NCBI GenBank assembly: GCA_019747795.1
Contig: JAIEQK010000229.1
Location: 1-34,321, forward strand
From: Gammaproteobacteria bacterium
Lineage (GTDB): Bacteria; Pseudomonadota; Gammaproteobacteria; Ga0077536
Direction: 5' to 3'
Length of the DNA stretch: 34,321 nucleotides
Below, piece by piece: positions 9,605 through 31,253 of this stretch. The stretch's first letter is position 1. Each line of letters begins with the position of its first letter. The notes below the pieces were generated by a model that saw nothing but the letters and a program-made list of their open reading frames with translations, had not been told where the DNA came from and did no database searches. The translations under genes and the position numbers were made by a program.

Positions 9605-9919
9605 ATGCCCGACATCGCCCTCATCAACGTGGCGCGCCTCGCCGACGACGCGCCGACCCGCATCGAACTGCCCGGCCTGCCGCCGCTGGTGGTCGTGCGC
9701 CATGGCACGCTGTTCCACGTGTTCGACGATCGCTGCACGCACGACGAAGCCTCGCTGGCCGACGGCAGCGTCGAGGGCGAAGAGCTCTTCTGTCCGCGCC
9801 ATCGCGGCGCGTTCGCGCTGGCCGACGGCCGCCCCACCCGACCGCCCTGCTTCGTGCCGCTCAGGCGTCACGCCGCGCGCGTGATCGACGGCGTGCTCTA
9901 CCTCGACTGGGCGGGTTGA
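9605..9919 (+). CDS. Rieske-type [2Fe-2S] ferredoxin-like protein
   Basis: A 104-residue protein holding one Rieske cluster site: CTH at 44-46 and CPRH at 63-66, that is C-x-H followed by 16 residues and C-x-x-H. This is the ligand set for a [2Fe-2S] cluster bound by two cysteines and two histidines. The size and lack of a membrane segment fit the small soluble ferredoxins that feed electrons to ring-hydroxylating oxygenases, or the small subunit of NirD-like proteins. GGGAG stands before the ATG. It is divergent from the VOC gene, so a shared role in aromatic breakdown is possible, but no oxygenase is nearby. Confidence 0.88.
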   Translation: MPDIALINVARLADDAPTRIELPGLPPLVVVRHGTLFHVFDDRCTHDEASLADGSVEGEELFCPRHRGAFALADGRPTRPPCFVPLRRHAARVIDGVLYLDWAG

Positions 9920-9936
9920 GCCGCACGCCGACGCCG

Positions 9937-10114
9937 GCCTGGATTTCTCACAGGTGCTCGTCGCGAGGGCGACGAGATGCCGTTGTGGCGGGCCGCACGG
10001 AGCAAAACCCGGCGAAGGCATGGTCGACACCATGTCGAGACGGGTTTTGCGAGTACGGCCCACTACTGCGCGCAGATCGGCGGCCGCGGCAGGGGGCCTG
10101 TGAGAAATCCAGGC
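9937..10114. repeat. 174-bp structured inverted-repeat element, copy 1
   Basis: The ends form an exact 18-bp inverted repeat, GCCTGGATTTCTCACAGG against CCTGTGAGAAATCCAGGC. Inside are CTCGTCGC-GAGG-GCGACGAG, a 10-bp stem GCAAAACCCG/CGGGTTTTGC, and a 6-bp hairpin CATGGT-CGAC-ACCATG nested in it. The core (9939-10112) is the same length, without gaps, as the second copy at 30368-30541; differences between copies keep base pairing. It lies between the Rieske gene and the LLM gene, ending about 42 bp before the LLM start codon. It looks like a small non-autonomous mobile or structured-RNA element. Confidence 0.85.
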
Positions 10115-10156
10115 TAGTATGGCCGCCCTGTTTCAGCACATATCGCGGAGGTTTCC

Positions 10157-11005
10157 ATGGACATAGGCGTGATGATCTTCCCCACCGACAAGTCCATCCA
10201 GCCGGTCGAACTCGCGCGCGAGGTCGAGGCGCGCGGACTCGAATCGCTGTGGTTTCCGGAGCACAGCCACATTCCGACCAGCCGCGAGACGCCGTGGGGC
10301 GGCCGTGAGGGCGCACCGCCGCTGCCCGAGCAGTACTGGCGCTCCCACGACCAGTTCGTCGCGCTCGCGGCCTGCGCCGCCGTGACCAGCCGTATCCGAC
10401 TCGGCACCGGCATCACCCTGGTCGCCCAGCGCGATCCGATCTGGCTCGCGAAGGAGGTGGCCAGTCTCGACTTCATCTCCAACGGTCGCTTCGAGCTCGG
10501 CATCGGCTACGGCTGGTGCGTCGAGGAGATGCGCAACCACGGACTCGCCTACCGCGAGCGGCGCGCGGTGCTGCGCGAACACATCCTCGCGATGAAGGAA
10601 CTGTGGACCAAGGAAGAGGCGAGCTTCGAGGGCAAGTACGTGCACCTGGAGAAGAGCTGGGCCTGGCCCAAGCCCGTGCAGATGCCCCACCCGCCCATCG
10701 TCATGGGCGGCGCGGCCGGCCCGCAGACCGCGGCCCACGTCGCCGAGTTCTGCACCGGCTGGATGCCGCTCGGCGGCGCCTACGATCTGCAGAACGGGCT
10801 GAAGGAGATTCATGCCGCGTTCGCCAAGATCGGCCGCGATCCGGCGAGCCTCTCGCTCGGCATGTTCTACGCCCGCCAGGTGCCGGAGGACGCGCTGAAG
10901 AAGCACGCCGCGCTCGGCTTCACCCGCGCCATCCTGCCGCTGCCCTCAGAAGGTCGCGACACCGTGCTGCCGATGCTGGACGAGATCGCGAAGATTCGAG
11001 TGTAG
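10157..11005 (+). CDS. LLM-class (luciferase-like) flavin/F420-dependent oxidoreductase
   Basis: A 282-residue luciferase-like TIM-barrel protein. It starts MDIGVMIFPTDKSIQPVELA and has the class features WFPEHSHIP near 34, RIRLGTGITLVAQRDP near 76, LDFISNGRFELGIGYGW near 100 (typical of the family), and HPPIVMGGAAG near 177. These resemble the subgroup usually labelled F420-dependent, but members in proteobacteria may use FMN, so the cofactor is uncertain. The substrate is unknown. CGGAGG precedes the ATG. The stem element at 9937-10114 is directly upstream. The TAG stop (11003-11005) is contributed by a TGTAGG repeat. It is convergent with the amidase. Confidence 0.85.
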   Translation: MDIGVMIFPTDKSIQPVELAREVEARGLESLWFPEHSHIPTSRETPWGGREGAPPLPEQYWRSHDQFVALAACAAVTSRIRLGTGITLVAQRDPIWLAKEVASLDFISNGRFELGIGYGWCVEEMRNHGLAYRERRAVLREHILAMKELWTKEEASFEGKYVHLEKSWAWPKPVQMPHPPIVMGGAAGPQTAAHVAEFCTGWMPLGGAYDLQNGLKEIHAAFAKIGRDPASLSLGMFYARQVPEDALKKHAALGFTRAILPLPSEGRDTVLPMLDEIAKIRV

Positions 11006-20088: not shown

Positions 20089-20184
20089 GGGGATCCAGGA
20101 AATGTGGGGTGGCGGCGAGGGTACTCGATGGCCTGGGCGGCCTCAACCGCGAAGGCTCTTCAGTCCTCGCGAGCGTTCGCGACA
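20089..20184. other. Leader region upstream of the MFS gene
   Basis: A 96-bp stretch between the MFS start codon and the first structured repeat. It holds GGATCC near 20092 and no ORF worth calling. The MFS promoter is expected here or within the repeat cluster, but no clear -35/-10 pair was seen. Confidence 0.4.
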
Positions 20185-21083
20185 CCGTCACCCTCGCGAA
20201 AGCGAGGGTCGATGGGCGCTCGGCGAAGCCCTTCGGTGCCTGCTTTCGTGGGCATGACGGTACACATCGGGTTCTCATTTCTCCGTCACCCCTGCGCAAG
20301 CAGGGGTCCATGGGCGGTCGGCGAGGCCCATGGATGCCTGCTTTCGCAGGCATGACGGTTCTGATGGGTGCGAGGAGGATCGAAAGACCTGCGCTTTCAC
20401 CTCCGCACCCTCACCCTCGCGAAAGCGAGGGTCCGTGGGCGGTCGGCGAGGCCCATGGATGCCTGCTTTCGCAGGCATGACGGTACACATCGGGTTCTCA
20501 ATTCTCCGTCACCCCTGCGCAAGCAGGGGTCCATGGGCGGTCGGCGAAGCCCATGGATGCCTGCTTTCGCAGGCATGACGGATCTGATGGGTTCGACGAG
20601 GAGCGAAAGACCTGCGCTTCCCCCCCACCACACCGTCACCCTCGCGAAAGCGAGGGTCCACGGGTGGTCGACGAAGCCCATGGATGCCTGCTTTCGCAGG
20701 CATGACGGATCTGATGGGTTCGAGGGGGGCCGAACGATCTGCGCCTTCACCACCACACCGTCACCCTCGCGAACGCGAGGGTCCATGGGCGGTAGGCAAA
20801 GCCCATGGATGCCTGCTTTCGCAGGCATGACGGATCTGTTGGGTTCGAGGGGGGCCGAACGATCTGCGCCTTCACCACCACACCGTCACCCTCGCGAAAA
20901 CGAGGGTCCGTGGGCGGTCGGCGAGGCCCATGGATGCCTGCTTTCGCAGGCATGACGGATCTGATGGGTTCGAGGAGGATCGAAAGACCTGCGCTTTCAC
21001 CACCACACCGTCACCCCTGCGAAAGCAGGGGTCCATCGGCGATCGGCGAAGCCCATGGATGCCTGCTTGCGCAGGCATGGCGG
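20185..21083. repeat. Tandem cluster of eight 76-bp three-hairpin repeats
   Basis: Eight copies of a 76-bp core start at 20185, 20283, 20408, 20506, 20633, 20758, 20883 and 21008. Each core holds three hairpins: a GC stem with a four-base loop (CCCTCGC-GAAA-GCGAGGG or CCCCTGC-GCAA-GCAGGGG), CCATGGGC...GCCCATGG, and ATGCCTGC-TTTC-GCAGGCAT, ending ATGACGG. The linkers are also repeated: a 22-nt type after copies 1 and 3, and about 49-51 nt after copies 2, 4, 5, 6 and 7. Copies 1-2 and 3-4 form a 223-bp double unit; copies 5-8 follow at 125 bp. The short ORFs in this region (MPAKAGIHG-type and its antisense) are translation artefacts of the repeat and not genes. Confidence 0.92.
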
Positions 21084-21179
21084 GTCTGACGGGCTCGCCA
21101 GCTCGTTGCCAGCGGTTGACGCGTCGAAGCGCGCCGCGACATAGTCGGTCGGACACGGCCACAACGCGAGGATGCCGCC

Positions 21180-28804: not shown

Positions 28805-29025
28805 CGCTCGCGCTCGCTCATCATCGGGCGCTCTGGGGTGAGCGCGGAGCGGTCCTTATACCTGCGTCCCGGCGGCCCTGCCATGCCACGCCGCCCGATT
28901 CGACGAATATGTCAATTGTTCACCGGCGCGCGGCGCGACGCGGGAACCCATGCCCCGCGCGGCTGCAACAAGTCATTGGCCCTGGGTATCATTGGGCTCC
29001 CGCTCCTGCCGCTGGACGCTCGCCC
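28805..29025. other. Intergenic region between the divergent RTX and transaminase genes
   Basis: A 221-bp region holding the promoters for two divergent genes. On the minus strand TATAAG (28855-28860) and TTGACA (28910-28915) resemble promoter hexamers, but their spacing is too large to pair. No operator palindrome or transcription factor site was recognised. Confidence 0.3.
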
Positions 29026-30357
29026 ATGGAACAGCCCGTCATCACCACCGCGCCCGAGCTCGAAGCGCTGTGGCTGCCCTTCACCCACAATCGTCACTTC
29101 AAGCGCCACCCGCGCCTGGTGAGCGGCGCCGAGGGCATGTACTACACGACGCCAGACGGCCGGCGTGTGCTCGATGGCCTCTCGGGCCTGTGGTGCTGCA
29201 ACGCCGGGCATCGCCATCCGCGCATCGTCGAGGCGGTGAAGGCGCAGTTGGACGAACTGGATTACGCGGTCGCCTTCCAGGTGCATCACCCGCGCGCCTT
29301 CGAACTGGCCTCGGCGCTGGCCGCCGCCGCGCCCGCCGATCTGAACCACGTGTTCTTCACCAACTCGGGCTCGGAGGCGGTGGACACCGCGCTCAAGGTG
29401 GCGCTCGCCTACCACCAGGCGCGCGGCGAAGGTCAGCGCTTCCGCTTCATCGGCCGCGCGCGTGGCTATCACGGCGTCGGCTTCGGCGGGCTGTCGGTCG
29501 GCGGCATGGTGGCGAACCGCAAGGCCTTCGCGGCCGCCCTGCTGCCCGGGGTCGATCACCTGCCGCACACGCACAATCTCGAGCACATGGCCTTCAGCCG
29601 AGGCCAGCCCGAGTGGGGCGCGCATCTCGCCGACGAACTCGAGAACATCATCGCCCTGCACGACGCCTCGACCATCGCGGCCGTGATCGTCGAGCCGATG
29701 CAGGGTTCGGCCGGCGTGATCGTGCCGCCGCGCGGCTATCTCGAGCGCCTGCGCGCGCTGTGCGACAAGCACGGCATCCTCCTCATCTTCGACGAGGTGA
29801 TCACCGCCTTCGGTCGCCTCGGCACGAGCTTCGCCGCCGAGCGCTTCGGCGTCATGCCCGACCTGCTGACCTTCGCCAAGGGCGTCAACAGCGGCATGGT
29901 GCCGCTCGGCGGCGTGATCGTGAAACAGGGCATCTACGACGCCTTCATGCGCGGCCCCGAGCACCTGGTGGAGTTCTTCCACGGCTACACCTACTCCGGC
30001 CACCCGCTCGCCTGCGCGGCGGGCCTGGCCGCGCTCGAGGTGTATCGCGAGGAAGGCCTGTTCGAGCGCGCGCGACGGCTCGAGAGCGTGCTGGAAGACG
30101 CGGTGCACGCGCTGCGCGGCGAGCCGAACGTGATCGACATCCGCAACTTCGGCCTGGCCGCCGCGGTGGAACTGGCGCCGCGCGCCGGGCAGCCCTCGCT
30201 GCGCGCCATGCAGGTCTTCGACCGCTGCTTCCAGGACGGCGTGATGCTGCGCTACACCGGCGACATCCTGGCGCTCGGCCCCGCGCCCATCGCGAGCGAG
30301 GACGAGGTCGGCATGCTGGTCGACACCCTGCGCCGCGCGATCCGCGCCGCCGCCTGA
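29026..30357 (+). CDS. Class III PLP-dependent transaminase (omega-amino acid:pyruvate type)
   Basis: A 443-residue aminotransferase of the class III fold, close in appearance to beta-alanine/omega-amino acid:pyruvate aminotransferases. It has LWLPFTHNRHFKRHPRL near 15, the phosphate-binding FTNSGSEAVDTALK near 111, RARGYHGVGFGG near 144, the pyridoxal-contacting FDEVITAFGR with Asp256, and the PLP lysine Lys285 in LTFAKGVNSGM. HGYTYSGHPLACAA follows near 325. The amino donor is not predictable, and no neighbour fixes it. The ATG at 29026 (MEQPVITTAP) is chosen; an upstream in-frame start at 28909 would add a non-homologous leader. It lies 215 bp upstream of the halohydrin-dehalogenase-like gene, with a 174-bp element between. 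Confidence 0.9.
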   Translation: MEQPVITTAPELEALWLPFTHNRHFKRHPRLVSGAEGMYYTTPDGRRVLDGLSGLWCCNAGHRHPRIVEAVKAQLDELDYAVAFQVHHPRAFELASALAAAAPADLNHVFFTNSGSEAVDTALKVALAYHQARGEGQRFRFIGRARGYHGVGFGGLSVGGMVANRKAFAAALLPGVDHLPHTHNLEHMAFSRGQPEWGAHLADELENIIALHDASTIAAVIVEPMQGSAGVIVPPRGYLERLRALCDKHGILLIFDEVITAFGRLGTSFAAERFGVMPDLLTFAKGVNSGMVPLGGVIVKQGIYDAFMRGPEHLVEFFHGYTYSGHPLACAAGLAALEVYREEGLFERARRLESVLEDAVHALRGEPNVIDIRNFGLAAAVELAPRAGQPSLRAMQVFDRCFQDGVMLRYTGDILALGPAPIASEDEVGMLVDTLRRAIRAAA

Positions 30358-30367
30358 GCTTGCTAGA

Positions 30368-30541
30368 CTGGACTTCTCGCAGGTGCTCGTCGCGAGGGCG
30401 ACGAGATGCCGTCGTAGTGGGCCGCACGGAGCAGAACTCGGCGAAGGCATACTCGGCAGTATGTCGAGACGAGTTTTGCGAGTACGGCCCACTACCACGC
30501 GCAGATCGGCGGCCGCAGCAAAGGACCTGTGAGAAGTCCAG
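30368..30541. repeat. 174-bp structured inverted-repeat element, copy 2
   Basis: The second copy of the element at 9937-10114. The ends CTGGACTTCTCGCAGG and CCTGTGAGAAGTCCAG pair with one G-T wobble. The hairpins of copy 1 are kept with compensatory changes: GCAGAACTCG/CGAGTTTTGC, and CATACT-CGGC-AGTATG. GTAGTGGGCCG/CGGCCCACTAC is an exact 11-bp pair here. The copy is flanked by GCTAGACT on both sides (30362-30369 and 30542-30549), a possible 8-bp target duplication that slightly overlaps the ends. It ends about 31 bp before the SDR start codon. Confidence 0.85.
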
Positions 30542-30572
30542 GCTAGACTCGAACAACGACGAGGAGTCCGAC

Positions 30573-31253
30573 ATGAGCCAGCGCCTGCGTGGCAAACGCG
30601 TGGTGGTCACCCAGTGCAGCGCCTTCATGGGCCCGCCCACGGTGGCGGTATTCCGCGAGGAAGGCGCGGAGGTGTTCGCCGATGATCGCGACCTCGCGGT
30701 CGGCGGCGCCTGCGAGGCGCTGATCGCCGACGCCGGCGAGGTCGACGTGCTGGTCGCCAACCTCGCAGGGCCGACCTTCTCCGGCACCGCCACCACGGCG
30801 CTCGCCGACGAGCAGTTCGAACAGACCTTCGCGCTCATGGTGCGCCCGCTGCATCGCCTGGTGCGCGCGGTGCTGCCGCAGATGATCGCGCGCCGCGCCG
30901 GCAAGGTGGTGGTGTACGGCAGCGCCTCGGCGCTGAAGGGCATGAAGACGCTGGCGGCTTACTCGGCGGCGCGCGCCGCGCAGGTCGGCTACGTGCAGTC
31001 GGTCGGCGTCGAAGTGGCGCCGCACAACGTGCAGATCAACCTCATCGCGCAGAACTACATCGAGAATCCGGACTACTACCCGCCGGAGCTGACCGCGCGC
31101 GAGTCCTTCCAGACCTCGCTCAAGCGCCAGGTGCCGGCCGGTCGGCTCGGCACCGCGCGCGAGGACGCGCTGTTCGCCCTGTTCCTCGCCAGCGACGAGA
31201 GCAACTACTTCACCGGCCAGGCCATTCCCTTCTGCGGCGGGTGGGTGCAGTGA
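30573..31253 (+). CDS. Halohydrin dehalogenase-like SDR
   Basis: A 226-residue SDR-fold protein whose active-site motifs are those of halohydrin dehalogenases, not normal SDR oxidoreductases. The glycine-rich NAD(P) motif TGxxxGxG is replaced by TQCSAFMG (Thr13-x4-Phe18-x-Gly20). The catalytic set is Ser117, Tyr130 and Arg134 (S-x12-Y-x3-R), where a usual SDR has Y-x3-K. Both patterns are used to recognise this family, which eliminates halide from vicinal halohydrins to give epoxides, and in reverse opens epoxides with halide, cyanide, azide or similar anions without a cofactor. QRLGT-like GRLGTAREDALFALFLAS and YFTGQAIPFCGGW also resemble HheC. GAGGAG precedes the ATG. It overlaps the next gene by four bases (GTGA). 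The activity is inferred from motifs only. Confidence 0.82.
   Translation: MSQRLRGKRVVVTQCSAFMGPPTVAVFREEGAEVFADDRDLAVGGACEALIADAGEVDVLVANLAGPTFSGTATTALADEQFEQTFALMVRPLHRLVRAVLPQMIARRAGKVVVYGSASALKGMKTLAAYSAARAAQVGYVQSVGVEVAPHNVQINLIAQNYIENPDYYPPELTARESFQTSLKRQVPAGRLGTAREDALFALFLASDESNYFTGQAIPFCGGWVQ

Follow-up and report, generated by a model that had tools for sequence, protein, structure and literature searches.

The window, the whole 34,321 nt stretch of gammaproteobacterial DNA analysed here, carries two copies of a strongly palindromic sequence, and the question is what kind of element this is and what keeps its two arms complementary. A first-pass annotation had described it as a 174 bp element with compensatory differences between the copies, and had read them as the signature of an RNA or single-stranded DNA fold that is under selection or subject to duplication-linked maintenance.

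Two copies of a 184 bp hairpin and their relatives

The two copies share 89 % identity in a gap-free alignment and are of equal length, as had been claimed, but the real unit, which includes the duplicated target, is 184 bp rather than 174 bp. Both lie on the forward strand, copy 1 at 9934–10117 and copy 2 at 30363–30546, and both were recovered by DNA search, by folding and by a covariance model, which scored them at 174.8 and 174.9 bits, respectively, over model positions 1–184. In the minimum-energy fold, the two arms pair with each other over the full element to give one long imperfect hairpin, with a folding energy of −123.1 kcal/mol for copy 1 and −110.2 kcal/mol for copy 2, far beyond chance when set against dinucleotide shuffles (z = −11.2 and −9.8). 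All of the compensatory differences reported earlier are present: the outer stem changes from T:A to C:G, the inner stem from C:G to T:A, and the apex from CATGGT/ACCATG to CATACT/AGTATG, the covarying apical hairpin of copy 1 (GGCATGGTCGACACCATGTC, forward strand) occupying 10017–10036. A further stem, CTCGTCGC/GCGACGAG, does exist as a local inverted repeat inside the left arm, but it is absent from the minimum-energy fold, in which the left arm is taken up by pairing with the right one.

In copy 1, the left terminal inverted repeat, CCTGGATTTCTCACAGG, is at 9938–9954 (forward strand) and the paired right end, found by an end search, is at 10097–10113 (reverse strand). They are bounded by CTAG on the right (10114–10117) and, on the left (9934–9937), by CCGG in place of CTAG, which we take to be a decayed copy of a 4 bp target duplication on the basis of related copies. 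Copy 2 has CTAG at both ends. The neighbouring host genes, all on the forward strand, are predicted to encode a Rieske-domain protein (9605–9919) and a luciferase-like monooxygenase (10157–11005) upstream and downstream of copy 1, and a class-III aminotransferase (28909–30357) and a short-chain dehydrogenase (30573–31253) in the same positions around copy 2.

A DNA search of this genome (G000) found two subfamilies, distinguished by CCTGGATTTCTCACAGG or CCCGCATTTCTCACACG at the ends, with about 11 full-length members between them; several shortened copies were also found, and copies with preserved flanks have CTAG on either side. Two of the shortened copies are near-perfect palindromes (L014, 66 bp, and L043, 53 bp). 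In one copy of 154 bp (L012, G000:C305:39673-39826), the central part has been swapped for different sequence. A plasmid search gave no match to the element.

Beyond this genome, 28 of 369 gammaproteobacterial genomes contain the end motif CTAGCCYGSATTTCTCAC and none contains a reversed control motif; the matches listed for a related motif, in the named genomes scanned, include Acidobacteria, Planctomycetota, Gemmatimonadetes, Alphaproteobacteria, relatives of Halomonas and others. Several unrelated inner hairpins lie inside the same ends, designated type I (184 bp, including both window copies), type II (approximately 167 bp) and longer ones. The covariance-model search of related genomes that the first-pass annotation had suggested was run with a model built from 25 type-I copies, and it matched 24 of the 369 genomes (E up to 1e-8), mostly at exactly 184 bp; a few of the weaker matches are type-II hairpins, and the count for type I alone is somewhat below 24. 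Among 107 distinct extracted copies, 92 are exactly 184 bp, and this length is mostly kept at identities down to 49 %. L234, one of the copies, comes from an Acidobacteria genome. The family is multicopy, patchy in distribution and recent in some genomes, such as G239, where 40 copies were scored at 97–100 % identity.

The window holds two other repeats. A second hairpin element, GTAGGTCGGACTTCAGTCCGAC...GTCGGGCTGAAGCCCGACCTAC, lies at 1594–1676 (z −8.7), and a similar motif is present in contig C191 of this genome (L045) and in another genome, G002, at the site that corresponds to that of copy 2 (L210). Near-identical direct repeats (223-nt families, 125-nt spacing) cluster at 20183–21097; they consist of short palindromes, found around CTCGCGAAAGCGAG and GCCTGCTTTCGCAGGC, and are similar to a REP-like array.

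Ends, transposases and target site

The ends of the element provide the link to a transposase. IS1380-family transposase genes in several phyla sit between CTAGCCCGCATTTCTCAC ends that are the same as those of the element, and ends of the CTAGCCCG[CG]ATTTCTCAC type flank such genes in inverted arrangement, with the start of the gene mostly 75–134 bp inside one end. Intact genes with these ends are found in Gammaproteobacteria (L108, L109, L110 and L120) and in other bacteria (L248, L279 and L293), and two loci in other bacteria (L233 and L253) have shorter transposase frames between them. The ends of L120 have diverged but remain matched to one another, an argument for their being its own. In G000, the search for an intact IS1380 transposase with these ends yielded none, only two IS1380 fragments, both at contig starts, one of them with a similar end, CCTGGATATCTCAC. 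Two genomes, G319 and G303, carry intact IS1380 transposase genes together with type-I copies, and eight of 20 carrier genomes gave no PF13701 match, a number to be read with the knowledge that repeated sequence is often dropped from assemblies. The shared ends lead us to infer that it was an IS1380 transposase that mobilised both window copies.

An IS1380-like insertion sequence in G193 (L121, contig C84) lies between two inverted 43 bp arms of the local element and was considered as the autonomous parent. It was rejected, as its relatives L413 and L415 have CCTA-type ends (CCTAGAAAAATCAGTTA and CCTAGAAACCGCAGTT) and lack those arms, from which L121, with CCTA ends of its own, appears to be nested in the palindrome; its transposase type was found in only two of 24 carriers. 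Separately, an IS110-family transposase gene (L089, G090:C6:4786-6587) is located between the same ends, apparently inserted in a palindromic element, an arrangement that recalls IS1111 in Coxiella MITEs.

Target duplication is seen in G239, where four copies have matched variant tetranucleotides at both ends (TTAG twice, CTAA and CTGG), supporting a 4 bp duplication with CTAG preferred. For another IS1380 member, IS1247, a 5 bp duplication is listed (PMC3281130). At two further copies in the same genome, L199 and L206, the flanks do not form direct repeats (TCAG with CTGA and TTAG with CTTA), and a simple target duplication does not explain them. Copy 2 has no counterpart upstream of the dehydrogenase gene in G001, a genome of the same genus, an observation made at this one site; in G002 another palindrome occupies the position.

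A CTAG tetranucleotide at the ends of a hairpin is also a feature of REP/REPIN-type elements, which are moved as single-stranded hairpins by RAYT tyrosine transposases and for which compensatory changes and a length constraint are likewise known (PMC3116915). However, the same ends flank DDE transposase genes of IS1380 and not RAYTs, and 4 bp direct duplications of variant sequence fit DDE transposition, making a REPIN origin highly implausible. Rather, each window copy is very probably a non-autonomous mini-transposon (MITE) linked to the IS1380 family. As is usual for MITEs, the element is short (184 bp), gene-free and multicopy, shares its terminal inverted repeats with an autonomous element (the 18 bp ends that enclose IS1380 transposase genes in genomes other than this one), duplicates its target, and has an empty orthologous site (the single one in G001). 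The target duplicated on insertion is 4 bp long and nearly always CTAG, and we envisage that an IS1380-family transposase acting in trans would cut and paste the MITE.

Since CTAG includes a TAG and is regenerated on each side of the insert, a copy that inserts where a gene ends does not destroy its stop codon, and gene ends would therefore be safe sites. Counting open stretches rather than annotated genes as reading frames, 18 of 38 boundary CTAG sites in G239 terminate a frame that is open over 150 codons or more, compared with two of 30 CTAG sites elsewhere (p=3e-4) and, among TAG triplets, 23 of 537. The corresponding figures for this genome are 12 of 22 boundary sites and 3 of 8 controls, the latter too few for a test. 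Over all genomes, the TAG stop of a neighbouring long frame is supplied by the element in 43 of 86 scorable copies (100-codon threshold). Neither window copy is at a stop codon, the last base of a TGA lying 15 bp before copy 1 and six bp before copy 2. At seven loci (L009, L010, L011, L185, L194, L195 and L373), the CTAG at both ends of the element closes long frames that converge on it from the two sides.

Covariation and maintenance of the fold

Across 25 sequences, standard pairs are found in 81.7 % of cells, a percentage biased towards the true register because the structure was derived from folds of the same sequences. Both sides have changed in 47 of the 81 pairs, and there are 255 double-change cells in the true register compared to 42–85 when the partners are slid. 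A tree-based count gave 40 pairing-preserving double substitutions in the true register against 0.3–6.4 in registers shifted by 1–6, and with 90 sequences and pairs picked by strict Watson-Crick matching the count was 55 against 0–5 with partners slid. A simplified R-scape-like test (G-test with APC and a tree-based null), which has low power and was replaced by these tree-aware counts, returned one significant pair, in register. The covariation is real and grows as more copies are added, which supports a maintained fold, as in the original claim; what the claim missed is that the element is mobile.

The first-pass annotation had also held that random stem substitutions in additional copies, or copies present only as unpaired decayed sequence, would count against it. 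The former outcome does not appear on older branches, where double changes are common relative to single changes, but on the recent scale, after insertion, decay does occur: among close copies, 101 of 154 distinct body substitutions are at paired positions where 109.5 are expected, and there is no depletion in stems. Older substitutions preserve the fold and recent ones strike stems as often as elsewhere.

The covarying stems, together with the frequent placement just past stop codons, could be explained if the element encoded a structured RNA, either a small RNA or a 3'-UTR element, that is used by hosts and whose copies are kept for that role. Changes of the G-T kind also exceed those of the A-C kind at stem pairs on one strand (79 vs 50, summed over branches; 34 vs 20 in recent copies, p=0.08), a faint hint, with relatedness only partly corrected, of one strand functioning as RNA or single-stranded DNA. 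Against such a role, recent stem substitutions are undepleted, the element has no promoter- or terminator-like site, it matches no Rfam family at gathering score, its distribution is patchy, and its orientation with respect to the gene ending at it is random (21 co-oriented, 15 opposite, p=0.41). We consider this explanation quite improbable and, given the unbiased orientation and the lack of recent stem constraint, rejected the idea that hosts make use of the fold in 3' ends.

A second possibility is that the complementarity of the arms is a product of mutation and not of selection, with template switching during replication using one arm to rewrite the other. Such switching clearly takes place, since short perfect palindromes made of one arm exist (L014 and L043, above, and L107, 58 bp), and all nine double changes in close clusters restore pairing. 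Yet in recent copies uncorrected single changes far outnumber corrected ones (143 vs 9). Template switching would also erase bulges and mismatches and tends to alter length, whereas these irregularities persist at fixed places in divergent copies and the element stays at 184 bp; conserved bulges and fixed length are left unexplained by it, and as the source of the complementarity it is unlikely.

Hence, from the undepleted recent stem changes and the random gene orientation, the fold is probably kept during proliferation and not by the host at each site, that is to say, it is probably maintained in those lineages that go on transposing. Copies able to fold may proliferate or survive better during mobility, either via the DNA hairpin itself or via a transcript, and we lean towards the view that the fold is kept for mobility of the MITE rather than for host use of each inserted copy. 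A more far-reaching proposal, which we offer only tentatively, is that these are cross-phylum mini-transposons whose mobility needs a specific 184 nt fold of one strand, as RNA or single-stranded DNA, such that an IS1380 cut-and-paste system would select for structure and the CTAG target would make stop codons the preferred safe landing site.

Comparison with known mobile elements

Palindromic bacterial MITEs are known, many of them hairpins over their whole length. Since its length is fixed, its copies are numerous and deeply diverged and its covariation is clear, this family allows a natural test of the role of the hairpin, as changes made before insertion, when the fold is kept, can be separated from those made after insertion, when it is unprotected. 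A CTAG target together with intact stop codons also suggests a simple, testable route to dozens of copies without harm to genes. In the open-access literature, to which the search was confined, neither an IS1380-derived MITE nor an earlier description of the end sequence was found.

The MITE resembles IS1380 insertion sequences (NF033539, PF13701) in the type of its ends, their inverted arrangement and the CTAG flanks, but it is gene-free and its body beyond the approximately 18 bp ends is not recognisably derived from them. REPINs (PMC3116915), which are short, multicopy, extragenic single hairpins with compensatory changes, are the closest precedent for covarying hairpins of constrained length, but they are tied to RAYT transposases whereas the MITE has the ends of a DDE family and a target duplication. 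Other palindromic bacterial MITEs, among them ERIC/RU-1, Correia/NEMIS and RUP (PMC2229807, PMC10969869), are likewise approximately 100–200 bp, intergenic, and folded into a whole-length stem-loop, with terminal inverted repeats and target duplication. The MITE described here differs from them in its IS1380 parent family, in its CTAG target, often at stop codons, and in the breadth of a single family, which extends across many bacterial families and into the Acidobacteria. Finally, IS1380 serves as the outgroup to piggyBac (PMC10813416), and though piggyBac is eukaryotic, both duplicate a palindromic 4 bp target, TTAA in piggyBac and CTAG in the MITE, a parallel that is suggestive.
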